Of a DNA stretch of 64,000 bases, positions 19,232 to 64,000 are shown one piece after another. The stretch spans positions 124,001 through 188,000 of the forward strand of contig NZ_JAALBX010000005.1 in the NCBI RefSeq assembly GCF_011077955.1. Reading direction: 5' to 3'. The first letter of the stretch is position 1. Every line of letters starts with the position of its first letter. A program made the position numbers and the translations under genes. Source of the stretch: Citrobacter freundii. GTDB taxonomy: Bacteria > Pseudomonadota > Gammaproteobacteria > Enterobacterales > Enterobacteriaceae. The notes below the pieces were generated by a model that ran no database searches, was not told the DNA's origin, and saw nothing but the letters and a program-made list of their open reading frames with translations.

Positions 19232-19334
19232 GGATTTTGAGCAGGCAGCCTCAAATCCCTTCGCCGGCGTTATCCGGATCAGGTTCGACGGGTATTATCT
19301 CAGCGCGCATTGTGATGCGGCACCCCGTTGAGAA
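19232..19334 (-). ncRNA. TPP riboswitch (THI element; SroA in E. coli)
   Basis: On the minus strand the conserved TPP-aptamer blocks are present in order: GGGGTGC near 19327-19321, CTGAGA near 19303-19298, then ACCCG, GAACCTGATC, CCGGATAA and GCGAAGGGA. The aptamer covers about 19250-19334. It is followed by an expression-platform hairpin, GGATTTGAG paired with CTCAAAATCC (19258-19232), shortly before the thiB ribosome site AGGAAGTG/AAAGGAAG. TPP binding should reduce thiBPQ expression. Confidence 0.95.
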
Positions 19335-19373
19335 CGGTCAGTATTGTAATGATTTAATCAGTGTTTGAAAGGA

Positions 19374-21103: not shown

Positions 21104-21294
21104 GATGAAAGTGATGATTCCGCTGTGGCGAGGGTGGTTTTAGGGGAGAAGCGTTAGGGTGTCGCCGCTGGCCCGCGGTGAGGCAATAGCGTCCTGAACG
21201 CGTTCGGTTTTCCCGGCGAACATTGCAGGCATCGAGTGTGACTGAGTATTGGTGTTTTTCACCCGCCAGCGGTTTTTTAACTGCTGGCTTTTTT
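21104..21294 (+). ncRNA. sgrS: SgrS small RNA (glucose-phosphate stress)
   Basis: SgrS pairs with ptsG and other mRNAs via Hfq. The 3' half is unmistakable: the ptsG-pairing block GTGTGACTGAGTATTGGTG at 21236-21254 and the Hfq-type terminator at 21265-21294. The terminator is a 10-bp stem with one G-U pair and a 4-nt loop, followed by six T. The 5' end is inferred from the GATGAA start seen in E. coli. In the 5' half I find no SgrT-like peptide; the only AUG frame nearby is a 12-codon MKVMIPLWRGWF (21105-21143). It lies between divergent sgrR and setA, and setA starts 37 bp beyond the terminator. Confidence 0.9.
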
Positions 21295-21331
21295 CGTGTA
21301 TAACTTTTTCTTTCATGAAAGGATGCATGGT

Positions 21332-27228: not shown

Positions 27229-27275
27229 GAATACGGTCCTTATTTCAGTTTTCTGCGCCTGCGACGAGCATAAAA

Positions 27276-27298
27276 AAACCCGCGCAGTGCGCGGGTTT
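27276..27298 (-). terminator. leu operon attenuator terminator
   Basis: AAACCCGCGC (27276-27285) and GCGCGGGTTT (27289-27298) form a perfect 10-bp stem with a 3-nt loop, followed on the minus strand by a run of T. It lies between leuL and leuA, the position of the leucine attenuator. Confidence 0.93.
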
Positions 27299-27324
27299 CG
27301 TTTTCTCTTGTGACTTGATTCAAC

Positions 27325-27408
27325 TTAACGCTGAACATCGCCCAACAGTCTACCGCGCAGAGATGCGTTAAGTAGTAGTAGACCGAGCAGGCGAGTAGTG
27401 CGAATCAT
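27325..27408 (-). CDS. leuL: leu operon leader peptide LeuL (27 aa)
   Basis: The frame from ATG 27408 reads MIRTTRLLGLLLLNASLR, then GRLLGDVQR and a stop at 27325. It has four consecutive leucine codons, three of them the rare CTA, as in the E. coli leader. Ribosome stalling there when charged tRNA-Leu is scarce should prevent the attenuator forming. Confidence 0.93.
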   Translation of the reverse strand: MIRTTRLLGLLLLNASLRGRLLGDVQR

Positions 27409-27442
27409 TTATCAAGCCTCAGAATGCGTTAAGATGCTTTTA

Positions 27443-47641: not shown

Positions 47642-48894
47642 TCAAGGCGACGGACAGAAAACTGGTAGTTGGACTAGAGATCGGGACCGCAAAGGTCGCC
47701 GCTTTAGTAGGGGAAGTTCTGCCCGACGGTATGGTCAATATTATTGGCGTCGGGAGTTGCCCTTCCCGTGGAATGGATAAGGGTGGGGTTAACGATCTTG
47801 AATCGGTAGTGAAATGCGTACAACGCGCTATCGATCAAGCTGAATTAATGGCGGACTGCCAGATTTCTTCGGTATATCTGGCGCTTTCGGGTAAACATAT
47901 CAGTTGCCAGAATGAAATCGGCATGGTGCCTATTTCTGAAGAAGAAGTGACGCAAGAAGACGTAGAAAACGTCGTACATACCGCCAAATCGGTGCGTGTG
48001 CGTGATGAACATCGTGTTCTGCACGTTATTCCTCAGGAATATGCTATCGATTATCAGGAAGGCATTAAAAATCCGGTAGGGTTATCCGGTGTACGTATGC
48101 AAGCTAAGGTACATTTGATTACCTGCCATAACGATATGGCGAAAAACATTGTTAAAGCAGTTGAACGATGTGGCCTAAAAGTTGACCAACTCATTTTCGC
48201 AGGTCTGGCGGCAAGTTATTCGGTCCTGACTGAAGACGAACGCGAATTGGGTGTCTGTGTCGTAGATATCGGCGGTGGTACAATGGATATCGCCGTGTAT
48301 ACCGGTGGTGCGCTTCGTCACACGAAAGTTATCCCCTATGCCGGGAACGTGGTGACCAGTGATATCGCTTATGCTTTTGGTACGCCGCCAAGCGATGCCG
48401 AGGCGATTAAAGTGCGTCATGGTTGCGCGCTGGGATCGATTGTCGGTAAAGACGAAAGCGTAGAAGTACCGAGCGTTGGCGGACGTCCGCCGCGGAGTTT
48501 ACAGCGTCAAACGCTTGCCGAGGTGATTGAGCCGCGTTATACCGAGTTGCTCAACCTCGTCAACGAAGAAATTTTGCAATTGCAGGAGCAGTTGCGACAG
48601 CAAGGGGTGAAACACCATCTTGCGGCTGGCATCGTCTTAACTGGCGGCGCAGCACAAATTGAAGGCCTCGCCGCCTGTGCGCAACGCGTATTCCATACGC
48701 AAGTACGTATCGGGCAGCCATTGAATATTACCGGGCTTACTGATTATGCTCAGGAGCCTTATTATTCGACGGCGGTAGGCCTGTTGCACTACGGGAAAGA
48801 AACACATCTCAGTGGTGAAACGGAAACGGAAAAACGGACTTCAGTCGGCTCGTGGATTAAACGACTCAACGGTTGGCTACGAAAAGAGTTTTAA
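47638..48894 (+). CDS. ftsA: Divisome membrane anchor FtsA (actin-like)
   Basis: FtsA tethers FtsZ to the membrane and signals to FtsN/FtsQLB. It has 418 residues (E. coli 420). The actin-family phosphate loop [16 protein letters not shown], the [17 protein letters not shown] phosphate-2 motif and the [11 protein letters not shown]-type adenosine motif ([11 protein letters not shown]) are present. The C-terminal amphipathic helix [14 protein letters not shown] is the membrane-targeting sequence. The two-residue shortening lies in the variable linker before that helix. Confidence 0.97.
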
Positions 48895-48902
48895 TTTAAA
48901 AA

Positions 48903-48925
48903 GAGACTGCCGAATTCGCAGTCTC
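48903..48925 (+). promoter_or_regulatory. ftsA-ftsZ intergenic hairpin
   Basis: GAGACTGC (48903-48910) and GCAGTCTC (48918-48925) form a perfect 8-bp stem with a 7-nt loop in the 60-bp ftsA-ftsZ gap, 21 bp before the ftsZ ribosome site. No T-run follows, so it is more likely an RNA processing or stability element than a terminator. Confidence 0.55.
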
Positions 48926-48954
48926 AGGCGACAGGCACATTACGGAGAGAAACT

Positions 48955-50106
48955 ATGTTTGAACCTATGGAACTGACCAACGACGCGGTGATTAAAGTCA
49001 TCGGCGTCGGTGGTGGTGGCGGTAATGCCGTCGAACACATGGTGCGCGAGCGCATCGAAGGTGTGGAATTCTTTGCGGTGAATACCGATGCTCAGGCATT
49101 GCGTAAGACTGCGGTAGGACAGACTATTCAGATTGGTAGTGGGATCACGAAGGGCCTTGGCGCCGGCGCGAACCCTGAAGTTGGCCGTAACGCTGCGGAT
49201 GAAGACCGCGAAGCGCTGCGCGCCGCCCTGGATGGCGCAGACATGGTATTTATCGCAGCAGGTATGGGCGGTGGTACAGGTACGGGCGCAGCACCAGTTG
49301 TAGCGGAAGTGGCTAAAGACCTGGGTATCCTGACCGTAGCGGTTGTGACCAAGCCTTTCAATTTCGAAGGCAAGAAGCGTATGGCCTTCGCAGAGCAGGG
49401 GATTACTGAGCTGTCGAAGCACGTTGACTCGCTTATTACTATCCCTAACGACAAGTTACTTAAAGTGCTGGGTCGCGGCATTTCTCTGCTGGATGCCTTT
49501 GGCGCGGCGAACGATGTACTCAAAGGTGCCGTACAGGGTATCGCGGAACTGATTACGCGTCCGGGTCTGATGAACGTTGACTTCGCGGACGTGCGTACTG
49601 TGATGTCTGAAATGGGTTACGCGATGATGGGTTCTGGCGTAGCGAGCGGCGAAGACCGTGCGGAAGAAGCGGCTGAAATGGCTATTTCTTCTCCGTTGCT
49701 TGAAGATATCGATCTCTCCGGCGCGCGTGGCGTACTGGTTAACATCACGGCGGGCTTTGATTTACGTCTGGATGAGTTTGAAACTGTCGGTAACACGATT
49801 CGTGCGTTTGCCTCAGATAACGCGACCGTGGTTATCGGTACGTCTCTCGACCCGGATATGAATGACGAACTGCGCGTCACCGTGGTGGCCACCGGTATCG
49901 GCATGGACAAACGCCCGGAAATCACGCTGGTGACCAATAAGCAAACTCAGCAGCCTGTGATGGATCGCTACCAGCAGCATGGTATGGCGCCGTTGCAGCA
50001 AGAACAGAAGCCTGCGGCAAAAGTGGTTAACGACCCGACGCCACAAGTGGCTAAAGAACCGGATTACCTGGATATTCCGGCGTTTTTGCGCAAACAAGCT
50101 GACTAA
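48955..50106 (+). CDS. ftsZ: Cell division GTPase FtsZ
   Basis: FtsZ is the tubulin homologue that forms the Z ring. It has 383 residues, same as E. coli. The tubulin signature GGGTGTG is at about 106-112, with N-terminal IGVGGGGGNAVEHM, a synergy-loop NVDFADVRTVM, a variable linker rich in Gln/Lys/Pro, and the conserved C-terminal peptide DYLDIPAFLRKQAD that binds FtsA, ZipA and MinC. GGAGAG lies before the ATG. Confidence 0.98.
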   Translation: MFEPMELTNDAVIKVIGVGGGGGNAVEHMVRERIEGVEFFAVNTDAQALRKTAVGQTIQIGSGITKGLGAGANPEVGRNAADEDREALRAALDGADMVFIAAGMGGGTGTGAAPVVAEVAKDLGILTVAVVTKPFNFEGKKRMAFAEQGITELSKHVDSLITIPNDKLLKVLGRGISLLDAFGAANDVLKGAVQGIAELITRPGLMNVDFADVRTVMSEMGYAMMGSGVASGEDRAEEAAEMAISSPLLEDIDLSGARGVLVNITAGFDLRLDEFETVGNTIRAFASDNATVVIGTSLDPDMNDELRVTVVATGIGMDKRPEITLVTNKQTQQPVMDRYQQHGMAPLQQEQKPAAKVVNDPTPQVAKEPDYLDIPAFLRKQAD

Positions 50107-52055: not shown

Positions 52056-54761
52056 ATGCTAATCAATTTATTAACTAAAGTTTTCGGTAGCCGTAACGAC
52101 CGCTCCCTGCGTCGTATGCGCAAAACAGTCGCGGCAATTAATGCCATGGAACCGGCGCTGGAAAAACTTTCTGATGACGAACTTAAAGCGAAAACCACAG
52201 AGTTTCGTGCTCGTCTGGAAAAAGGCGAATCCGTTGACAGCCTGCTGCCAGAAGCGTTTGCAGTCGTTCGTGAGGCCAGTAAACGCGTGTTCGGCATGCG
52301 CCACTTCGACGTACAGCTGATGGGCGGTATGGTGCTCAATGACCGCTGCATCGCGGAAATGCGCACTGGTGAAGGTAAAACCCTGACCGCGACCTTACCG
52401 GCCTACCTGAACGCGTTGAGCGGCAAAGGGGTTCACGTTGTTACCGTGAACGACTACCTGGCCCAGCGTGATGCTGAAAATAACCGTCCGCTGTTTGAAT
52501 TCCTCGGTATGACCGTTGGCATTAACTTGCCCGGTATGCCAGCGCCGGCGAAACGCGAAGCGTACGCTGCGGATATCACTTACGGTACCAACAACGAATA
52601 CGGCTTTGACTACCTGCGTGACAACATGGCGTTTAGCCCTGAAGAACGCGTGCAGCGCAAACTGCACTATGCGCTGGTGGATGAGGTGGACTCCATCCTG
52701 ATCGATGAAGCGCGTACGCCGCTTATCATCTCTGGTCCGGCGGAAGATAGCTCTGAGCTGTACAAAAAAGTGAATAAAATCATTCCTCACCTGGTGCGTC
52801 AGGAGAAAGAGGATTCCGACACCTTCCAGGGCGAAGGTCACTTCTCCGTGGACGAAAAATCGCGTCAGGTTAACCTGACGGAACGTGGTCTGGTATTGAT
52901 TGAAGAACTTCTCGTGAATCAGGGCATTATGGATGAAGGCGAGTCGCTTTACTCGCCAACTAACATTATGCTGATGCATCACGTAACGGCCGCGTTACGC
53001 GCTCACGTTCTGTTCACCCGCGATGTGGATTACATTGTAAAAGATGGCGAAGTCATCATTGTGGATGAGCACACGGGTCGTACCATGCAAGGCCGCCGTT
53101 GGTCTGATGGTCTTCACCAGGCGGTAGAAGCCAAAGAAGGGGTGGAAATCCAAAACGAAAACCAGACCCTGGCTTCCATCACTTTCCAGAACTATTTCCG
53201 TTTATATGAAAAACTGGCAGGCATGACCGGTACAGCGGATACCGAAGCCTTTGAGTTCAGTTCTATCTACAAACTCGACACCATTGTTGTGCCGACCAAC
53301 CGCCCGATGATCCGTAAGGATATGCCCGATCTGGTCTATATGACTGAGATGGACAAGATCGCGGCAATCATTGAAGACATTAAAGAGCGTACCGCCAATG
53401 GTCAGCCTGTGCTGGTCGGTACCATTTCTATTGAAAAATCAGAAGTGGTCTCCAACGAACTGACTAAAGCGGGTATCGCGCATAATGTTCTGAACGCCAA
53501 ATTCCACGCCAACGAAGCGGCTATCGTCGCACAGGCCGGCTATCCGGCGGCAGTCACCATTGCGACCAACATGGCAGGCCGTGGTACAGATATCGTGCTG
53601 GGTGGCAGCTGGCAGGCAGAAGTCGCTGAGCTGGAAGATCCAACGCCTGAACAAATCGCTCAGATTAAAGCCGACTGGCAGGTGCGTCACGAAGCCGTTC
53701 TGGCATCCGGCGGTCTGCATATCATTGGTACGGAGCGTCACGAATCTCGCCGTATCGATAACCAGTTGCGTGGTCGTTCTGGTCGTCAGGGCGATGCCGG
53801 TTCTTCCCGTTTCTATCTGTCTATGGAAGATGCGCTGATGCGTATTTTCGCCTCGGATCGTGTCTCTGGCATGATGCGTAAACTGGGTATGAAGCCAGGC
53901 GAAGCCATTGAGCACCCCTGGGTGACTAAAGCCATCGCCAACGCCCAGCGCAAAGTGGAAAGCCGTAACTTTGATATTCGTAAGCAATTGCTTGAATACG
54001 ATGATGTGGCAAACGATCAGCGTCGCGCGATCTACACCCAGCGTAACGAATTGCTGGATGTATCAGACATCAGCGAAACCGTGAACAGCATCCGTGAAGA
54101 TGTGTTTAAAGCGACCATTGATGCCCATATCCCGCCACAGTCTCTTGAAGAGATGTGGGACATTCCGGGCCTTGAAGAGCGTCTGAAAAACGATTTCGAC
54201 CTGGAATTGCCTATTGCCGAGTGGCTGGACAAAGAGCCGGAGCTGCACGAAGAAACGCTGCGTGAGCGTATTTTGCAGAACGCTATCGACGTTTATCGTC
54301 GTAAAGAAGAAGTGGTCGGCACCGAGATGATGCGTCACTTCGAGAAAGGCGTGATGCTGCAAACGCTGGATTCCCTGTGGAAAGAGCACCTGGCGGCAAT
54401 GGACTACCTGCGTCAGGGCATCCACCTGCGTGGTTACGCGCAGAAAGATCCGAAGCAGGAATATAAGCGCGAGTCGTTTGCTATGTTTGCCACCATGCTG
54501 GAATCGCTGAAATATGAAGTCATCAGCACCCTGAGTAAAGTTCAGGTGCGTATGCCGGAAGAAGTGGAAGCGATGGAACAGCAGCGTCGTGAAGAGGCAG
54601 AGCGCCTGGCGCAGATGCAGCAGCTTAGCCATCAGGATGATGACAGCGCGGCAGCCGCGGCGCTGGCGGAACAGACCGGCGAGCGTAAAGTGGGCCGTAA
54701 CGATCCGTGCCCATGCGGTTCCGGTAAGAAATACAAACAGTGCCATGGTCGCCTGAGCTAG
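52056..54761 (+). CDS. secA: Preprotein translocase ATPase SecA
   Basis: SecA drives post-translational export through SecYEG. From the ATG at 52056 ([21 protein letters not shown]) it has 901 residues, the E. coli length. Walker [10 protein letters not shown] (Lys near 108), [12 protein letters not shown] (about 209-220), the arginine-finger region [18 protein letters not shown], and the C-terminal zinc site [13 protein letters not shown] (near 885-897) are all intact. In E. coli mutT follows; here a terminator and the convergent hemW follow instead. Confidence 0.98.
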
Positions 54762-54779
54762 TCGGCAACCGTTAGACAT

Positions 54780-54815
54780 AAAAAAGCCCCTGCGATATCG
54801 CAGGGGCTTTTTTTA
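54780..54815. terminator. Bidirectional terminator between secA and hemW
   Basis: A perfect palindrome, AGCCCCTGCGATATCGCAGGGGCT, flanked by an A-run on the left and a T-run on the right. It can end both the secA and the convergent hemW transcripts and sits exactly at the junction where gene order departs from E. coli. Confidence 0.93.
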
Positions 54816-54833
54816 TAAGCACGTCTTAACAAC

Positions 54834-55970
54834 TCAGTCGGCCAGAAACAGCTCCAGCAACGAGTTCAGGAACAGCTTTCCATGCTCGGTAATTTGCCAC
54901 TCATCTGGCGTTTCCACTACATAACCGAGGTTTAACGCCTGGTCGATTTGCGGGCGAATGCTCTCTTCTGTTAAGCCGGTATAACGCGTGAACTCTGCGC
55001 GCGGCGCGGCTTCCAGCAAACGGAAGCGATTCATGAAAAACTCAAAAGGTTTATCCGCCGTTTCTACCTCATGCTGTTTGTCGAGATAGTTGCCCTGCAT
55101 ATAACCGTGCGGATGACGGGTTTTCGCGGTACGGATTATCCTGCCATCCGGGTAGGTGATTTTACCGTGCGCGCCGCAACCGATCCCCAGATAATCACCA
55201 AAGCGCCAGTAGTTGAGATTGTGCTGGCACTGGTAGCCCGGTTTTGCATAAGCCGAGGTTTCATACTGCAGATACCCTGCCGCGCTCAGCAATTGATGAC
55301 CCTGCTCGAAGATGTCCCACAGTGCGTCATCGTCCGGTAATACCGGCGGGCGCGAGCCAAACAGGGTGTTTGGTTCAATGGTTAGTTGATACCAGGAAAG
55401 GTGCGGCGGATTCAGCGCAATAGCCTGACGCAAATCCTCAAGCGCGTCTTCCAGCGTTTGATCCGGCAACCCGTGCATCAAATCCAGATTAAAACTGCGC
55501 AACCCTAAAGCATGGGCCAGGCGCGCGGCGCGTATCGCTTCTTCCGGGCCGTGAATACGCCCCAGCCGGGTGAGTTTCGTCTGTTCAAAACTCTGCACAC
55601 CGATGGAGATACGGTTAACGCCAGCACGTTGATAATCGACAAAACGGTCGGCTTCAACGGTACCAGGATTGGCCTCCATCGTGATTTCCGCATCCGCGCG
55701 TAACGTTAATCGCGTACGCACGCCGTCCAGCAGTGTTTGCATTGCCGGGCCGGAAAGCAGGCTTGGCGTACCCCCGCCAATAAAAATGGTACTGATTTCC
55801 CGTCCCTGAGCCATCGCAGCGTCATTATCCAAATCGGCTAAAAGATGCTGCACATAATCGTCGTGCGGCACTTCGCCCTTCAGCGCATGAGAGTTGAAAT
55901 CACAGTAAGGGCATTTCTGCACGCACCAGGGGATATGAATGTATAAACTCAGGGGTGGCAAATTAGCCAT
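54834..55970 (-). CDS. hemW: Haem chaperone HemW (radical SAM family)
   Basis: HemW resembles coproporphyrinogen dehydrogenase HemN but is a haem-trafficking protein. It has 378 residues, same as E. coli. The radical-SAM CxxxCxxC is CVQKCPYC (16-23), with Phe rather than the HemN Cys two residues later, as expected for Hem[21 protein letters not shown] and [12 protein letters not shown] are further family motifs. The start overlaps the rdgB end by 8 bp. Confidence 0.96.
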
Positions 55971-56556
55971 GTCGCATTGCTTCCAGTAACTGTTTCAGCG
56001 CTTGTCCACGGTGGGAAATGGCGCTCTTTTCTTCGCGGGTCAATTCTGCGGCGGTTTTGCCTTCAGAAGGAACATAAAAAATAGGATCGTAGCCGAAACC
56101 GCCTTCGCCCGCTGGGGCATGGGTAATTACGCCAGGCCAGACGCCATGGAACACCAGCGGAGTCGGATCCTCCGCATGGCGCAGGTAGACCAGGACGCAG
56201 TGAAATTGCGCCTGACGTTTCGAGTCTGGTACGTCTTTCAACGCCGCCAGCAGCTTCTCAAGGTTTTCTCGATCGCTTGCGTCTTCGCCCGCGTAACGTG
56301 CGGAGTAAATACCCGGCGCGCCGCCAAGTGCATCAACCGCGAGGCCGGAATCGTCCGCGATAGCGGGTAAACCGGTGATAGCCGCTGCATGGCGTGCTTT
56401 GAGAATTGCGTTCTCAATAAACGTCAGGCCGGTTTCTTCTGCCGACTCAACGCCTAACTCGGTCTGAGCAACAATATCGAGCCCAAAATCCTGTAATAAA
56501 GACGCGAGTTCACGCACTTTCCCGGCATTTCCGGTAGCGAGGACAACTTTTTGCAT
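55963..56556 (-). CDS. rdgB: dITP/XTP pyrophosphatase RdgB
   Basis: RdgB is a house-cleaning hydrolase that removes dITP, dHAPTP and XTP. It has 197 residues, same as E. coli. Ham1-family motifs: [13 protein letters not shown] at the N-terminus, [23 protein letters not shown] (about 67-90), [14 protein letters not shown], and [10 protein letters not shown] at the C-terminus. It lies 15 bp downstream of yggU. Confidence 0.96.
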
Positions 56557-56571
56557 AGTGAAATCCTGTGA

Positions 56572-56871
56572 TTAAAGCAGCGCCGCAATAGCGGGCGGGA
56601 TCTGTTGCGGTTCAGTAATGACTATCTGTTTGTGACGGCCCGTTTCGCCCTTTTCAATGGTCACCTGACTTTTAGGTACCCGAAATTGCTTAGCGAGAAA
56701 TTTGACCAAATGCGCATTGGCCTGGCCGTCAACCGGTGGGGCGGTGATGGCAATTTTTACTTCATCGCCATGCAATCCAATAATCGCGTCGCGACTGGCT
56801 TTCGGCTGAATATACAGCCGAAGCGTCAGTCCAGTCGCAGCGCGCTCTACGGCACTCATAGCGCCATCCAC
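56572..56871 (-). CDS. yggU: DUF167 family protein YggU
   Basis: A 99-residue conserved protein (E. coli 96) of unknown function. The DUF167 core is visible: [36 protein letters not shown] and [12 protein letters not shown]. Its start overlaps the yggT end by 16 bp, so translation is probably coupled. Confidence 0.9.
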
Positions 56872-57422
56872 AGCCCCGGCAGCAGCATGTTTCCGGTGCT
56901 TTGCAGTAATTCCATCATGCCCATATTCAGTACGTACAGCAGCAATACCAGCACCATCGGTGAGAAATCAATCCCGCCCATGGCAGGCAGCATACGACGA
57001 ATCGGCGACAGCAACGGCTCGGTAAGCTGTATCAATACATATTCAACCGGGCTGCGGCCACGACTGATCCAGCTCATTAACGCCATCACCAGCAGTACCC
57101 AGAAAATCAGCAACCCGATGGTTTTAATCAGGATGAGCAGGGCGGCTATCCAGATAATCGGCTGGAAAGTGATGACCATAAACAGCACCATCGACTTAAT
57201 CAGGCTGAGAACAAACGCCATCAATAGTGAGGCAGTATCGATAGGCCCCATTGACGGGATAATGCGGCGCAGCGGCCCCACGACCGGTTGCGTCGCTTTG
57301 ACAACGAACTGGGCGAGCGGATTGTAGAAATCGCAACGCGCCCACTGCATCCAGATGCGTAACAGCATCACCATGGTATTCAGTTCAAGCGCGGTGGAAA
57401 TCAGGAAAGTCAACGTCTTCAT
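56856..57422 (-). CDS. yggT: YggT-family inner-membrane protein
   Basis: A 188-residue protein (E. coli 188) with two YggT repeats, each with two hydrophobic helices and an [20 protein letters not shown]- or [15 protein letters not shown]-type amphipathic segment. YggT proteins have been linked to osmotic or ionic tolerance and, in other bacteria, to cell division/SepF regions; the precise function is open. It follows yggS by 15 bp. Confidence 0.93.
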
Positions 57423-57437
57423 GGCATTCCTCTGTGG

Positions 57438-58151
57438 TTATTGTCCTTGATGTGCCTGGTAATCGCGCGCGCCGAAAATGGCGGTGCCGATGCGCACCAT
57501 CGTGCTTCCGGCTGCAATCGCCGCCTCCATATCATCACTCATTCCCAGAGAAAGCGTGTCGACATGAGGATAGCGTTGTTTAAGCGCGTTAAATGCTACA
57601 GCCATTTGCTGTGCTACGGCAAACTGCCTTTCATAACTTGACTCAGGCGCCGGGATCGCCATTAAACCGCGCAGCGTCAGGCCGGGTAATTCCGCCACCT
57701 GGCTTGCCAGCGCATCCAGCTCCGCAAGGGGAATGCCGGACTTGCTGTTCTCATCGCTAATATTGATTTGAATCAGCACGTTAAGCGGCGGCATTGCCGT
57801 TGGACGTTGGTCGCTAAGACGGGTGGCGATACGCAGGCGATCGACGGTATGGCACCAGTCGAAATGCTCGGCAACCAGGCGGCTTTTGTTGGACTGTAAG
57901 GGGCCGATAAAGTGCCACTGCAACCCCAACACGCCCGCCTCGGCAAAATGACTGATTTTTTCCACGCCTTCCTGCACGTAGTTTTCACCAAACGCGCGTT
58001 GGCCGGCGGAAATGGCTTCTTCGATATCACTCGCAGGTTTAGTTTTGCTCACTGCAAGCAGGGTAACTTCTTCTGAAGATCTGCCGCAGCGTAACGCAGC
58101 CGCTGAGATCTTTGCTTTTATCTGCGCTAAGTTGCGCGCTATATCACTCAT
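57438..58151 (-). CDS. yggS: PLP-binding homeostasis protein YggS (PLPBP/COG0325)
   Basis: YggS holds pyridoxal 5'-phosphate and maintains B6 and amino-acid homeostasis; it has no known enzyme activity. It has 237 residues (E. coli 234). The PLP lysine is in LLAVSKTKPA (about 30-39), with FGENYVQEG, WHFIGPLQSNK and LSLGMSDDMEAAIAAGSTMVRIGTAIFG at the C-terminus. It is divergent from yggR with only 17 bp between start codons, and heads the yggS-yggT-yggU-rdgB-hemW operon. Confidence 0.95.
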   Translation of the reverse strand: MSDIARNLAQIKAKISAAALRCGRSSEEVTLLAVSKTKPASDIEEAISAGQRAFGENYVQEGVEKISHFAEAGVLGLQWHFIGPLQSNKSRLVAEHFDWCHTVDRLRIATRLSDQRPTAMPPLNVLIQINISDENSKSGIPLAELDALASQVAELPGLTLRGLMAIPAPESSYERQFAVAQQMAVAFNALKQRYPHVDTLSLGMSDDMEAAIAAGSTMVRIGTAIFGARDYQAHQGQ

Positions 58152-58168
58152 GATTGTCAGGAAGCTGT

Positions 58169-59146
58169 ATGGAAATGGAAGAAATGGTGGCCCTTAGTGT
58201 AAAGCATAACGTTTCGGATCTACACCTGTGCAGTGAGTTACCCGCACGCTGGCGACGAAAAGGCGAACTGGAATATGCCCCTGAGGGCGCGCCGCAACCC
58301 GATGCGCTGCTTTCAAGGTGGTTGTCAGCAGAACAACAATGCGCGTTGGCGCAACAGGGCCAACTGGACTTTGCGGTTACGCTTTCAAATGGGGCTCGTT
58401 TACGCGCCAATGCTTTTCAACAATCGCACGGCGTTTCGCTGGCGCTGCGTATCTTGCCCCAAATGGCTCCTGAACTGGATGCGCTCGGCGCGCCGCCCCG
58501 TATACGGGAACTGCTCGCCATGCAGGATGGATTAATTTTAGTGACTGGTGCGACGGGCAGTGGGAAATCCACCACGCTTGCCGCCATGGTGAATGAACTT
58601 AACAAAACGCTGAGCGGCCATATTTTGACGCTGGAAGATCCTATTGAATATCTTTACGCCAGTGATAAATGCCTGATTCAACAACGCGAAATCGGCACCC
58701 ATTGCAGCAGCTTCAGTGAGGGGTTGCGCGGCGCGCTGCGTGAAGATCCGGATGTGATTCTGCTTGGTGAATTGCGTGACAGCGATACTATCCGCCTTGC
58801 GTTAACCGCTGCAGAAACCGGCCATCTGGTACTGGCGACACTCCATACCCGCGGTGCGACGCAGGCGGTTGAACGCCTGGTGGATGTGTTTAGCGCCGAG
58901 GAGAAAAACATGATTCGCAGCCAGTTGGCTGGCAGCCTTAAAGCGGTGCTGGCGCAGAAGCTGACAGAAACAAAGCACGGAAGGCGCGCCGCGCTGTTTG
59001 AACTTTTAATTAATAACGCGGCCGTTGCGAATCTGATTCGCGACGGCAAGACCCACCAACTGCCCGGCGTGTTGCAAACCGGGCAGCAATTTGGGATGCA
59101 AAGTTTCGAACAGAGTCTGCAAAAGCTATCACTGTCGCAGGCGTAA
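58169..59146 (+). CDS. yggR: PilT-like secretion/retraction ATPase YggR
   Basis: A GspE/PilT-family hexameric ATPase. From the ATG at 58169 (AGGA 6 bp upstream) it has 325 residues (E. coli 326). Walker A is GATGSGKST (about 128-136), followed by the Asp box HILTLEDPIEYLY, LREDPDVILLGELRDSDTIRLAL, and the His box AAETGHLVLATLHTRGA. It resembles type IV pilus retraction ATPases, but no other pilus gene lies nearby; its role in enterobacteria is unclear. It converges on ruvX with a gap of 11 bp. Confidence 0.9.
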   Translation: MEMEEMVALSVKHNVSDLHLCSELPARWRRKGELEYAPEGAPQPDALLSRWLSAEQQCALAQQGQLDFAVTLSNGARLRANAFQQSHGVSLALRILPQMAPELDALGAPPRIRELLAMQDGLILVTGATGSGKSTTLAAMVNELNKTLSGHILTLEDPIEYLYASDKCLIQQREIGTHCSSFSEGLRGALREDPDVILLGELRDSDTIRLALTAAETGHLVLATLHTRGATQAVERLVDVFSAEEKNMIRSQLAGSLKAVLAQKLTETKHGRRAALFELLINNAAVANLIRDGKTHQLPGVLQTGQQFGMQSFEQSLQKLSLSQA

Positions 59147-59157
59147 TACAGGCGACG

Positions 59158-59574
59158 TTAAACGTGATTCTCAAAATAGCTTTCAAGGATGATAACGGCG
59201 GAGGCGGAATCAATACTGCCTTTATTCAGCGCCCGGAAGCCGCCGCGCTCGAACAGACCCGCCCGCGCTTCAACGGTACTTAACCGTTCGTCCTGTAATT
59301 CGACTTTAACGCCGAAACGGCCATGCAGACGATTTGCGAATTTACGCGCCCGGTCAGTCAGGGGTTGGTTGGTGCCATCCATATTCAATGGCAAACCGAC
59401 GACAACCAGTTCAGGCTGCCACTCTTTGAGAAGCTTTTCGAACTGCGTCCAGTCGGGGGTGCCGTCGTTAGCTTTTATCGCGGTGAGCGGTCTGGCTGTG
59501 CCGGTAATACGCTGCCCGATAGCAACACCGATGCTTTTGGTACCGAAATCAAAGGCCAATAGTGTTCCGCTCAT
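59158..59574 (-). CDS. ruvX: RuvX/YqgF Holliday-junction resolvase-like RNase H-fold protein
   Basis: An essential small RNase H-fold protein implicated in pre-16S rRNA 5'-end maturation. It has 138 residues, same as E. coli. The first catalytic Asp is in [15 protein letters not shown] (near residue 9), [11 protein letters not shown] lies mid-protein, and the C-terminal acidic [12 protein letters not shown] follows DERLSTVEA. Its start overlaps the yqgE stop by one base. Confidence 0.94.
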
Positions 59575-60137
59575 CAGGCATGCCCCGCCATGTCCGGCAT
59601 CGTGTGGATATCGATACCAATCAGTTTCGCCGCTTCACGCCATCGGTGCGCAATGGGTATACGGAAAAGAATATTCATGTCTGCCGGCGCGGTAAGCCAT
59701 GAATTTTCCAGGATCTCACGCTCCAGTTGGCCTTTATCCCAGGAGGAGTAACCCAGTGCGACAATCACCTCTTCCGGCTGGGATGCCGTGCCTAACGTTT
59801 CCAGTACATCGCGGGAGGTGGTGATAATGGTGTTATCGGAGATTCGGATACTGGAATTAAATTTATCCGGCGGCGTATGAAGGATAAAACCGCGATCTTC
59901 AGCCAGCGGTCCGCCGACGAAGACTGGCTTATCCAGACGACGAGCCGGATCGCGGGGTTCAGGCGTGATTTTGAGCTTCTGCAGGACACCATCCACTTTT
60001 AAGTTTTCGAGCGGCTTATTGATGATAAGCCCCATGGCGCCTTCCTCATTATATTCACAGATATAAACGACGGCGCGGCGGAACAGAGGATCCTGCAGGC
60101 CTGGCATAGCAATAAGAAAATGATGCTGTAAATTCAT
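59574..60137 (-). CDS. yqgE: UPF0301 (AlgH-like) family protein YqgE
   Basis: A 187-residue conserved protein of unknown biochemical function (E. coli 187). Family motifs: [36 protein letters not shown] in overlapping blocks at the N-terminus (about 7-42), [15 protein letters not shown], and [16 protein letters not shown]. It is cotranscribed with ruvX and follows gshB by 134 bp. Confidence 0.94.
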
Positions 60138-60271
60138 ATCAGCGGTCTGAATCCCTGGTTAAAAAAACATCTTCGCCCAAGTATGCGGGGAAAGCGATGG
60201 CCTGTCACTTTTTGGCAAAGCACATGACAGGACAGAAAACGTCGTTCGCGGGTTCCCTCCCGCGCAGGCTA

Positions 60272-61219
60272 TTACTTCGCCAGTCTTGCTTCGATAGCGT
60301 CCATCAGCATGCCGGTAATGGAGATGGGGAATTGTGCTTCAATCTCGCGAATGCAGGTGGGGCTGGTCACGTTAATCTCGGTTAAACGATCGCCGATGAT
60401 ATCAAGGCCGACAAAAATCAGTCCCTTCGCTTTAAGCGTAGGGCCGACACGACGAGCAATTTCCCAGTCGCTTTCGGTTAATGGACGTGGTTCGCCGCGC
60501 CCGCCTGCGGCCAGATTACCGCGCGTTTCACCGCCTTGCGGGATACGCGCCAGGCAATAGGGTACCGGTTCGCCATCAACCACCAGTACACGCTTGTCGC
60601 CATCGACAATAGCAGGGAGATAGTTCTGCGCCATGCAGTAACGGGTACCCAGCAGGGTGAGCGTTTCGGCAATAACAGACAGATTCGGATCGCCTGCTTT
60701 AACGCGGAAAATAGACGTGCCGCCCATACCGTCCAGCGGCTTGAGAATAATGTCGCCGTGCTCCTGCCAGAAGCTTTTGAGCTGCGCTTTGTTGCGCGTG
60801 ACCAGCGTGTGCGGCGTCAGGTCCGGGAACCAGGCGGTAAAGAGCTTCTCATTACAATCGCGCAGACTCTGCGGCTTGTTCACAATGAGGGTGCCCTGTT
60901 CTTCGGCACGCTCCAGGATATAGGTGGCATAAATAAATTCGGTATCGAAGGGCGGATCTTTACGCATCAGTACGACATTCAGGTCCGCCAGCGCAATATC
61001 CTGCTCACCGGTGAAGTCGTACCATTTGTCGTAATTCTGTTCAACGTTGAGCTGGCGGGTACGCGCACGCGCCTGGCCGTTTATCAGATACAAATCGGCC
61101 ATTTCCATGTAATGCAGTTCATAGCCGCGACGTTGTGCTTCCAGGAGCATGGCGAAGCTGCTGTCTTTTTTAATATTAATGGTTGCGATGGGGTCCATCA
61201 CAATGCCGAGCTTAATCAT
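60272..61219 (-). CDS. gshB: Glutathione synthetase
   Basis: GshB ligates glycine to gamma-glutamylcysteine. From the ATG at 61219 (MIKLGIVMDPI), preceded by AGGAGA, it has 315 residues (E. coli 316). ATP-grasp features: KDSSFAMLLEAQ, LMRKDPPFDTEFIYAT, ILKPLDGMGGTSIFRV (glycine-rich loop), and EINVTSPTCIREIE near the C-terminus. Twelve more in-frame codons upstream to 61255 lack family support. It lies downstream of rsmE. Confidence 0.97.
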   Translation of the reverse strand: MIKLGIVMDPIATINIKKDSSFAMLLEAQRRGYELHYMEMADLYLINGQARARTRQLNVEQNYDKWYDFTGEQDIALADLNVVLMRKDPPFDTEFIYATYILERAEEQGTLIVNKPQSLRDCNEKLFTAWFPDLTPHTLVTRNKAQLKSFWQEHGDIILKPLDGMGGTSIFRVKAGDPNLSVIAETLTLLGTRYCMAQNYLPAIVDGDKRVLVVDGEPVPYCLARIPQGGETRGNLAAGGRGEPRPLTESDWEIARRVGPTLKAKGLIFVGLDIIGDRLTEINVTSPTCIREIEAQFPISITGMLMDAIEARLAK

Positions 61220-61270
61220 TATGTTCTCCTGTGAACTGGCGTTGAGTGTTTGCAAGCCTGACGCCAGATA

Positions 61271-62002
61271 TTAACCCAGATCGCCAAAACGCACCTGTAG
61301 CGCGGTAATAGCGGTGAGCGCGGTAGTTTCGGTGCGCAATACGCGTGGTCCCAACAGAATATCAGTAAACTGGTGCTCTGCGGTCATGGCAATTTCCTCG
61401 CGGCTCAACCCGCCTTCAGGGCCAATCAGCAACCGCACCCGTTGCACCGGCAGGGGCAGCGTATTAATGCTCTGGCTGGCGCGCGGATGAAGATTGAGCT
61501 TCAGACCCTCATCAGGTTCGGCGCACCAGTCTTCAAGATCCATCGCCGGGCGGATTTCAGGGATCCGGTTGCGTCCGCACTGTTCGCACGCGGCGATGGC
61601 GATTTTTTGCCACTGCTGGATTTTTTTACTCAGTCTTTCAGCATCGAGCTTAACGCCGCAACGCTCGGAAAAAAGCGGGGTAATGATATTAACGCCAAGC
61701 TCGATGGATTTTTGGATGGTGAATTCCATCTTTTCGCCACGCGACATGACCTGGCCTAAGTGCAGATGGAGCGGGGATTCTCTGTCATCCTGAAGAGCAG
61801 TGATGACCTCGACCCGCACGCTTTTTTTATCAGCATGAGTAATGCGGGCGTCGAAAACCTGATTCGAACCGTCAAACAACTGTAACTGGTGGTCCGGGCC
61901 CATACGCAGGACGCGACCCACATGGTTTGCAGCGTCGTCAGTTAAATTCACCTGCAAGCCGACGCTCAACGGCTCGGGGTGATAAATGCGAGGAATGCGC
62001 AT
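61271..62002 (-). CDS. rsmE: 16S rRNA m3U1498 methyltransferase RsmE
   Basis: RsmE methylates N3 of U1498 in 16S rRNA. It has 243 residues, same as E. coli. It has an N-terminal PUA-like domain ([12 protein letters not shown]...NHVGRVLRM) and a SPOUT C-terminal domain with the knot motifs [14 protein letters not shown] (about 192-205) and [16 protein letters not shown]. gshB begins about 50 bp after it on the same strand. Confidence 0.96.
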
Positions 62003-62073
62003 AGTAATAATCCGGTCAAAGGCGCTCCCCAGCAGTGCGGGGAGCGGTAATTTTCAATGCCCGGTAGTGTAGG

Positions 62074-62781
62074 TTAGCTCTTTTGGGCCTGGCAAGCCTG
62101 CTGAACATAAGGGTTGTGATTGCCTTGTATATTGGCGATACGCTTGTCACGTTCACATTCCCAGGCACTCACCGGGTAAAGCTTATTCCATGCGTCAAAT
62201 AACTGCGTCTGCTGACGGGAAAGCGTAAGAGAATATTTGTCGCGCATATAGAAATAGGTGCGGGCGATAGCGCCGCGCGCCCTGGCTGGCGGTTCGGCGA
62301 GTTTTTCTTTGAAATCAATTTTCATGGCGCACTGCCCATACTGCCCTTCGCCGCCGTTCCACTGGCTGTACATAAAGTTGCCCCGGTCGCCGTTCACTTC
62401 ACCCACGGCGGGCTGCAGGTTATGCATATCGCTTTCCATCGCGCGATAAACGGGATCTTTGGCGCAGTTTTTCCGTCCGCCGTCCTGCCAGCACTGGCGC
62501 TGATGACCAAATTGCCAGGCGGGCACCACATGTTCCCATTCAATACGTGACGCGCGGTTTTCGTTTTTACGAACTTTATAACCACAAGATTCCAAATCCG
62601 GGATCCCTTTCTTTCCCTGCCAGGTGATTTTGCAGCCGCAATAGAAATCACCGGGTGCGTCAGCGTGGACTTTCACGCCTGCGGCCTTGGCCTGAGAAAA
62701 GTTTTGAATGCCGGCGCTAAAGGCGCTCCATGAAAAAGCCGCTGCAAATCCTGCAACCGCAAGAATGATTTTGCGAGACAT
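62074..62781 (-). CDS. endA: Periplasmic endonuclease I
   Basis: EndA is a non-specific periplasmic DNA endonuclease. From the ATG at 62781 ([24 protein letters not shown]) it has 235 residues, the E. coli length, with a clear signal peptide cleaved near AFSA-G. GGAG sits 6 bp upstream of this ATG. The active-site region is [20 protein letters not shown], with [25 protein letters not shown] downstream; eight cysteines suggest disulphides. The frame runs 19 codons further upstream without signal-peptide logic, so that start was rejected. Confidence 0.96.
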
Positions 62782-62877
62782 CTCGAACTCCATAGCAAAA
62801 TGAGTCCGCACCGTAACGAACGGCGGCAGGAGATGCAATCAGTCAGATCAGAAAATTTCCAGATAAAGCGCTTAAAA

Positions 62878-63387
62878 TTAATCGGTTGCCGGTTCGGGTT
62901 TGAGTGTCTCGCCGCAGTGGACGCAACGGTACTGGGTTTCGCCACGCAGCACTCGGTTATGGCGGCGCACGGTGAGTTGATGGCGCTGACAACCACAACG
63001 GTAGGGGAAGGTGCTTCTTACCAGCGAATCCAGCGCAAATTGATGGGTTCGTCTGGCAGGGATGCCCAGAACGCTTTCCATCATCCATTTCCACTCTTTT
63101 CCATGAGGCGCGACGCGGCCAAAGTGTTTCCAGACCAGCAAATGCGCCAGTTCATGGGGGACCACTTCGTCAGTAAACGCCTGCACGTTTTCCTGAAGCA
63201 ACGTGGGATTGAGGCGGATTTCGTAACGCTCAAGCCAGGCGGTGCCCGCCGCCGTGCCGCGCTGTTGGTAAACCAGTTTCGGCTCAGGATAGTCACGGTC
63301 AAGATGCTGGTTTGCGCGCGCTAAATGCTCGCGCAGGCTGCGCATCACGGCTTGTTGAATGGCGATGGGAAGACGAGGGGTTTTCAT
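62878..63387 (-). CDS. sprT: SprT-family zinc metalloprotease-like protein
   Basis: A 169-residue SprT protein (E. coli 165). The zinc-binding HELAH is at 78-82, and a C-terminal zinc ribbon has YRCGCQRH and YRCVHCGE. Related eukaryotic Spartan proteins degrade DNA-protein crosslinks; the bacterial role is unresolved. It sits between galP and endA as in E. coli. Confidence 0.93.
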
Positions 63388-63429
63388 AACGGCAAAGCAT
63401 AGAGCGAAGGAGGGGCATGCTGCAACAGA

Positions 63430-63456
63430 AAGACGCCCTCCGGGAAAGAGGGCGTA
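63430..63456 (-). terminator. galP terminator
   Basis: ACGCCCTC (63433-63440) pairs with GAGGGCGT (63448-63455) around a 7-nt loop, downstream of the galP stop on the minus strand; T residues follow. Confidence 0.72.
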
Positions 63457-63462
63457 TCGTGA

Positions 63463-64000
63463 TTAGTCGTGCGAGCCGATTTCGCGCAGGCGACGGCCTT
63501 TCATCAGGTTACGTTCGATGTGCTCAAGAGAGATATGTTTCGTCTCGGGCACCAGCCACAGGGTCAGCACGATAAAGAACAGGTTCAGCCCGCCATACAC
63601 CCAGAAAGTATTGGCGTTACCCAGCGTGTTCAGCATCGTCAGGAAAGTTGCGCCAACAATCATATTGGCAATCCAGTTTGTGGCGGTGGAGCAGGTAATA
63701 CCGAAGTCGCGCCCTTTCAGCGGCTGGATTTCTGAGCACAGCACCCAGATCAGCGGGCCGGCGCTCATCGCAAAGCCGACGATAAACATCAACAGCATGG
63801 CTACGGCGAAATACTGGCCTGCCGCTGTTTCAATGCCGATATGCATCAGGTAGCCCAAAATACCCATACCGGACGCCATGACCAAAAAGCCCAGCACCAG
63901 CGTTGGCTTACGGCCCCAACGGTCAACCAGACCGATGGCGATAAAGGTTGCCAGCACGTTTGTCAGACCGACGATTACCGTACCCCACATCTGCTCTTTA
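63463..64000 (-). CDS. galP: Galactose:H+ symporter GalP, C-terminal part (5' end outside window)
   Basis: A partial frame of about 179 codons, open to the window edge (codon phase complete at 63999). It starts in KEQMWGTVIVGLTNVLATFIA and ends LREIGSHD, matching the last two-fifths of the 464-residue E. coli GalP. It contains the sugar-porter signatures VDRWGRKPTL and LVPETKHISLEHIERNLM and helices about 8-12. No start codon is in the window. Confidence 0.95.
   Translation of the reverse strand, partial: KEQMWGTVIVGLTNVLATFIAIGLVDRWGRKPTLVLGFLVMASGMGILGYLMHIGIETAAGQYFAVAMLLMFIVGFAMSAGPLIWVLCSEIQPLKGRDFGITCSTATNWIANMIVGATFLTMLNTLGNANTFWVYGGLNLFFIVLTLWLVPETKHISLEHIERNLMKGRRLREIGSHD

Follow-up and report, generated by a model that had tools for sequence, protein, structure and literature searches.

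A secA|hemW gene-order break in Atlantibacter and its reciprocal yggN|mutT junction, best explained by one inversion spanning the replication origin

The stretch of DNA analysed here (64,000 nucleotides, called the window) contains two blocks that are colinear with different parts of the chromosome of Escherichia coli K-12. Positions 1-54788 correspond to K-12 55415-111011 in forward orientation (tblastx against K-12 50-125 kb), and positions 54834-63996 to K-12 3089145-3098403 in reverse orientation (tblastx against K-12 3080-3115 kb). At the place where the blocks meet, secA ends at position 54761 of the plus strand and the stop codon of hemW occupies positions 54834-54836 on the minus strand, so that the two genes converge (secA> <hemW). 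In K-12, secA is followed by mutT, which also adjoins secA in all 25 secA loci checked from other genera, and hemW is followed by yggM, ansB and yggN. The original prediction that secA is succeeded by a hemW-to-galP block on the opposite strand, instead of by mutT, thus describes the locus correctly. The products SecA, HemW, MutT and YggN all exceed their NCBIfam equivalog cut-offs. The features around the junction are:

1-54788, plus strand: block colinear with K-12 55-111 kb (tblastx against K-12 stretches), on the origin side of the proposed inversion, with secM and secA as terminal genes
52056-54761, plus strand: secA, 901 aa (open reading frame and NCBIfam equivalog), which once had mutT 3' of it
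54780-54813, no strand assigned: perfectly palindromic, terminator-like hairpin on either strand, containing A- and T-runs; its location is that of the secA hairpin in relatives, and its stem is altered
about 54815-54833, no strand assigned: putative inversion breakpoint interval of the secA|hemW junction (junction A), from secA-mutT spacers of relatives and from congeners
54834-55970, minus strand: hemW, 378 aa (open reading frame and NCBIfam equivalog), which once faced yggN (K-12 order) and now converges with secA
54834-63996, minus strand: hemW-to-galP block, K-12 3089-3098 kb reversed (tblastx against K-12 stretches), on the terminus side of the proposed inversion

Junction A was matched in one piece in five of five genomes of the genus, among them the window's own and a congener (G001) that is a single contig of 4,553,773 bp. 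Among named relatives, Atlantibacter hermannii 3608 is the closest, with a HemW that is 93% identical and DNA that is colinear with the window across the junction at 86-89% identity; from A. hermannii we infer that the five genomes (G000-G004) belong to Atlantibacter, a genus with two named species (NCBI). The junction spacer of G002 is that of A. hermannii 3608; these two may represent one species and are hence not counted apart. Among 80 hemW loci from other assemblies, secA adjoins hemW solely in A. hermannii. A search of 391 family genomes gave matches in 334, and among the matches listed only those of the five genomes of this genus span the junction, the other listed family matches ending near the secA stop codon. 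The original prediction considered a chimeric assembly, in which distant chromosome pieces are fused at 54.8 kb, as the main alternative, and the assembly of the window is indeed a 48-contig draft. A chimera, however, is recognized by a junction that occurs in one assembly and lacks a reciprocal, whereas here the same junction is present in all five genomes, one of them in a single contig, as well as in A. hermannii 3608, and its exact reciprocal is found in the same five. Two reciprocal joins in five assemblies are beyond a chimera, and this explanation can practically be dismissed. The gene-order break is confirmed to be real, neither chance nor the product of a single faulty assembly. The comparison of sister species that was suggested for dating the event, with the junction in all five genomes and in A. 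hermannii, makes the inversion at least as old as, and by this reasoning older than, the sampled species of the genus.

The reciprocal junction lies on another contig, C11, of the genome from which the window derives. There, guaC-coaE-zapD-yacG is followed by the tandem pair mutT and yggN, which share a strand, and then by yggL-trmB-mutY:

G000:C11, about 118.85 kb (L103 10841-10858), outside the window, yggN>mutT>: reciprocal junction yggN|mutT (junction B), from gene-by-gene reading

The arrangement yggN>mutT> occurs in five of five genomes of the genus, the same five that carry junction A, with 12-13 bp between the stop codon of yggN and the start of mutT in each of them; MutT at this junction matches the MutT equivalog over its full length. 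The expectation of a reciprocal junction in the same genome was therefore right, but the gene that mutT has come to adjoin is yggN and not, as had been expected, yggM (ansB). The ansB gene lies away from the junctions in all five genomes (e.g. G000:C2:137497-138540 and G001:C1:3522772-3523815) and is beside hemW in E. coli. A search for yggM gave no match in the five genomes, an absence that is weak evidence since the search had no positive control. In many loci of other genera hemW faces yggN directly, with neither yggM nor ansB between them, and hemW|yggN is therefore sufficient as the parental order. Judged from gene order, the pairs secA|mutT and hemW|yggN were turned into secA|hemW and yggN|mutT.

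The two junctions are arranged nearly symmetrically about the origin of replication. In G001, where oriC was placed by way of a match to mnmG-oriC-mioC of K-12 and dif by means of a pattern, the junctions are found, relative to oriC, at -777.5 kb on one arm and at +833.3 kb on the other, and their midpoint is offset by 0.61% of the chromosome; the two distances are 55.7 kb apart, so that the symmetry is approximate. The original prediction invoked a nearly equal distance of secA and hemW to oriC in K-12, and the actual values are 826.8 and 827.5 kb. Among 45 other complete genomes of the family, 40 have secA and hemW on opposite arms, with a median difference of 65 kb, and the two sites are usually in near-mirror positions across the family. 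In the remaining five they share one arm, a sign of additional inversions in the lineages concerned. Transcription of secA in G001 runs away from oriC and that of hemW runs towards it, as is the case for secA in 45/45 and for hemW in 43/45 of the other genomes. Reciprocal junctions, near-equidistant ends on opposite replichores, and an orientation that is kept with respect to replication were all found, and the predicted origin-symmetric inversion is supported by these properties, the reciprocal junction being present in 5/5 genomes. These positions concern the junction ends, oriC, dif and a few markers placed on G001, and later rearrangements may have occurred inside the stretch between the junctions. 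As a separate observation, mnmG-oriC was compared with the arm carrying secA in the 45 complete family genomes: its relative orientation matches that of K-12 in 22 and is opposite in 23, and it is not uniform inside either of the genera g139 and g69. Inversions of smaller size at oriC itself are apparently frequent in the family.

The best explanation for these data is a single inversion of the origin segment, with ends at hemW|yggN and secA|mutT, that reached fixation in the ancestor of the Atlantibacter genomes sampled (probability about 0.92), since both reciprocal junctions are present in every genome of the genus that was examined. It is very improbable that several steps, such as small transpositions or nested inversions, yielded both junctions. 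Steps of this kind are frequent in the family, as illustrated by the five of 45 genomes in which secA and hemW share an arm, by the 23 of 45 in which oriC is oriented relative to the secA arm unlike in K-12, and by G231, which needs another inversion besides the one at hemW|djlA that is described below. Nevertheless, the Atlantibacter junctions are exactly reciprocal, with just 12-13 bp between yggN and mutT, and one event is enough to produce them.

Comparison of spacers allows a rather precise placement of the break on the secA side. All 25 secA-mutT spacers inspected in other genera have a terminator-like hairpin that separates the genes, with its T-run about 12-20 bases ahead of mutT. In Atlantibacter the hairpin is retained at the secA side of the junction. 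The palindrome at 54780-54813 folds far better than shuffled sequences (z of -5.9 and -6.4 for the two strands) and is absent from the list produced by a consensus terminator scan of this stretch of the window; consensus scans gave 0 promoter-like sites in either junction stretch. The motif ATGG, which follows the T-run in most relatives, is kept in two of the three different Atlantibacter spacers compared, those of G003 and G004 being unmatched by a text motif. As the hairpin stays with secA and ATGG is kept in two of these spacers, the break can be placed after the T-run, at about 54815-54833, a tighter interval than the one originally proposed. The original prediction had the break fall cleanly between terminators. 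A palindrome does lie between secA and hemW, but at secA|mutT the break separates the secA hairpin from the tandem mutT gene and hence is not positioned between two terminators. The now convergent secA and hemW genes share this one putative terminator hairpin.

The gap between yggN and mutT folds no better than shuffled sequences and no terminator-like site was found in it, and a terminator-like hairpin is present on the coding strand of the yggL-yggN gap. As far as can be read from the DNA, the gene upstream of mutT is no longer secA but yggN, and no hairpin separates the two. The mutT gene is probably transcribed together with yggN in a new operon, and because of the hairpin between yggL and yggN the putative transcription unit may consist of just yggN-mutT. 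A scan of the yggL-yggN-mutT stretch gave 0 promoter-like sites against 2.3 in shuffled sequences, a result that gives no help on the position of the mutT promoter. The product of mutT, an antimutator gene, removes 8-oxo-dGTP. A symmetric inversion can apparently rewire a transcription unit, in this case by placing mutT 3' of yggN instead of 3' of the essential gene secA, and a change in mutT expression is a testable prediction.

Besides the Atlantibacter event, the hemW|yggN gap was shown to have served as an end in two or more other independent, reciprocal inversions that span the origin. Genes located 3' of hemW were mapped to K-12, after which yggN was located in the same genomes. Buttiauxella warmboldiae and B. 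agrestis carry the reciprocal pair hemW|setA and yggN|leuD (K-12 78799|78848; loci L024, L027, L312 and L314), and two genomes from two genera, G076 and G231, carry the pair hemW|djlA and yggN|rluA (K-12 58179|59687; loci L282 in G076, L257 in G231, L310 and L311). In K-12 the partner gaps secA|mutT, setA|leuD and djlA|rluA are 826.8, 794.6 and 774.7 kb from oriC, with hemW at 827.5 kb. The products of the djlA inversion lie at -648.7 and +700.3 kb from oriC in G076, and at -741.8 and +859.8 kb, thus less symmetrically, in G231, where secA is on the arm of hemW, which indicates that this genome was rearranged further. In a quick tree of four proteins (93 rows, with 53 of the 80 hemW loci included and 27 left out by hand, and with the lplT label of L066-L068 assumed without mapping), the partner groups form separate branches (secA 100 and djlA 99, both starred, and setA 91) with intact hemW|yggN rows between them. 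Three independent inversions with one common end and different near-mirror partners provide a natural experiment on what determines breakpoints, for which sister-fork position, tolerance of convergent gaps and local fragility are candidates. Other new neighbours of hemW were considered as symmetric cases and rejected: hemW|epmB (G124 and G290, epmB-efp side; L285, L290) has a 'same' orientation that misfits a single inversion, and both hemW|ftsP (G106, G211, G387 and G212, ftsP-plsC-parC; L266, L270, L272, L278) and hemW|lplT (lplT-aas; L046, L052, L072) map to hemW's own arm in K-12.

The repeated use of this gap would fit a convergent gap that is permissive to breaks, with symmetry as a constraint. 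No gene loses a promoter when a convergent gap is broken, so tolerance together with the constraint on symmetry may explain the reuse. Alternatively, the gap may be a fragile site, which breaks or recombines often. Of 46 complete genomes, 12 have no yggN within about 5 kb of hemW, whereas the convergent gap djlA|rluA, the sole control gap in this comparison, is apart in 2 of 46 (a single tree branch), and hemW|yggN is broken in 12 of the 79 assessable hemW loci (of 80). The three different reciprocal partners would also agree with fragility, as would the direction of hemW, which is read towards oriC in 43/45 genomes, so that a fork leaving yggN meets head-on transcription. However, yggN was located far off in seven of the 12 genomes; in G387, G211 and G290 hemW has the same new neighbour as in a genome with a located yggN, and G117 and G020 perhaps have mere inserts. 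No common repeat or motif was found. Furthermore, 11 of 79 loci lack an intact yqgF|yggS pair, with the break at the convergent yqgF> <yggR in five of six that were examined, which suggests that tolerance may be enough. We therefore consider a truly fragile site rather unlikely. The convergent gap nupG|speC is intact in 7/7 assessable loci, and neighbouring tandem and divergent pairs are almost always intact, yggU excepted, which is missing in 23 of 78 assessable loci in what looks like gene loss or divergence.

With respect to mechanism, illegitimate joining of two broken ends, either at near-synchronous sister forks or between lined-up chromosome arms, is favoured by us over decayed repeats at about even odds. 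Homologous recombination between inverted repeats (IS elements, rrn, REP) that have since been lost is a conceivable alternative, to which we give something short of an even chance. Long inversions within species are mostly flanked by inverted repeats, according to two papers (PMC5372343; PMC9584773), a REP-like sequence recognized by eye is present 3' of hemW in E. coli and Kluyvera, and B. agrestis has stretches of 16 bp (identical, E 0.004) and 22 bp (91%) at yggN|leuD that recur in inverted orientation some 1.4 kb away from hemW|setA. An inverted pair like this was not found in the junction flanks of B. warmboldiae. In Atlantibacter, however, the two junctions share nothing longer than 17 bp over 3 kb on either side in G000 and G001, so that the inverted repeats at both ends that mark a repeat-mediated inversion were not found in these genomes, and neither junction has a visible IS or rRNA gene. 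The possibility that similar terminators acted as recombining repeats was discarded as well: one hemW-yggN gap, of Pluralibacter, has a hairpin like that of secA, most of the gaps listed lack one, and the Atlantibacter junctions share no repeat. A product of illegitimate joining would have persisted because few transcription units were harmed and symmetry was spared; with ends nearly equidistant from oriC, gene dosage, leading or lagging orientation and replichore balance would hardly be altered, which may be the benefit. A more ambitious proposal is that origin-spanning inversions recur in Enterobacteriaceae at hemW|yggN, at about 0.83 Mb from oriC, without the help of repeats. Forks that leave yggN would run into head-on transcription of hemW, break, and be joined to any convergent or hairpin-bounded gap under the sister fork on the other arm, the partner (secA|mutT, setA|leuD or djlA|rluA) varying at a near-fixed distance from oriC. 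This proposal is speculative and in our opinion quite unlikely.

Origin-symmetric inversions are already known, and the reuse of a gap, the absence of an obvious repeat and the move of mutT are what is added here. The replication-associated inversions visible as 'X-alignments' (PMC9584773; PMC5850607; PMC2483231) likewise have reciprocal, near-equidistant junctions and a kept orientation relative to replication, but the Atlantibacter case is a fixed difference between genera, not a strain-level one, and has no repeat at its ends, whereas PMC9584773 reports the same repeat on both ends of inversions within species. Inverted-repeat inversions of E. coli and Pseudomonas aeruginosa (PMC5372343) resemble the present case in that one breakpoint takes part in different inversions; there, according to that paper, it is an inverted repeat, often an IS, that is used again, whereas the Atlantibacter flanks share no match above 17 bp. 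Endpoint hotspots near the origin in Yersinia (PMC2483231) are similar in the uneven distribution of endpoints and the dominance of symmetric inversions, but here one gap at about 0.83 Mb from oriC is involved, across genera and with differing partners on the other arm. Joining near sister replisomes, as well as selection, is discussed in PMC5850607, and a concentration of rearrangements near the origin is described in PMC12863080. The secA|hemW junction was not found in an open-access literature search by titles and the first part of abstracts, which is no proof of its absence elsewhere; in PMC7526173, the mentions of Atlantibacter and inversion concern flagellar loci. Where large inversions are, in the papers cited, mostly strain-level and repeat-mediated, the present one is reciprocal, genus-wide and defined to about 20 bases at its breakpoints, and the pair of junctions is a clean marker for the genus.

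Apart from the junction, the window contains three structured RNAs that were recognized by Rfam and are as expected for the region:

19238-19337, minus strand: TPP riboswitch
21177-21295, plus strand: SgrS RNA
27272-27423, minus strand: leucine operon leader

An additional Rfam match, to PssrA (RF02797, 'Plasmid-encoded Shigella sRNA A'; 77.3 bits, cut-off 69), is located at positions 48874-48963 of the plus strand. It covers the end of ftsA, the ftsA-ftsZ gap and the start of ftsZ, and thus represents a chromosomal site for an sRNA family that was named after a plasmid.
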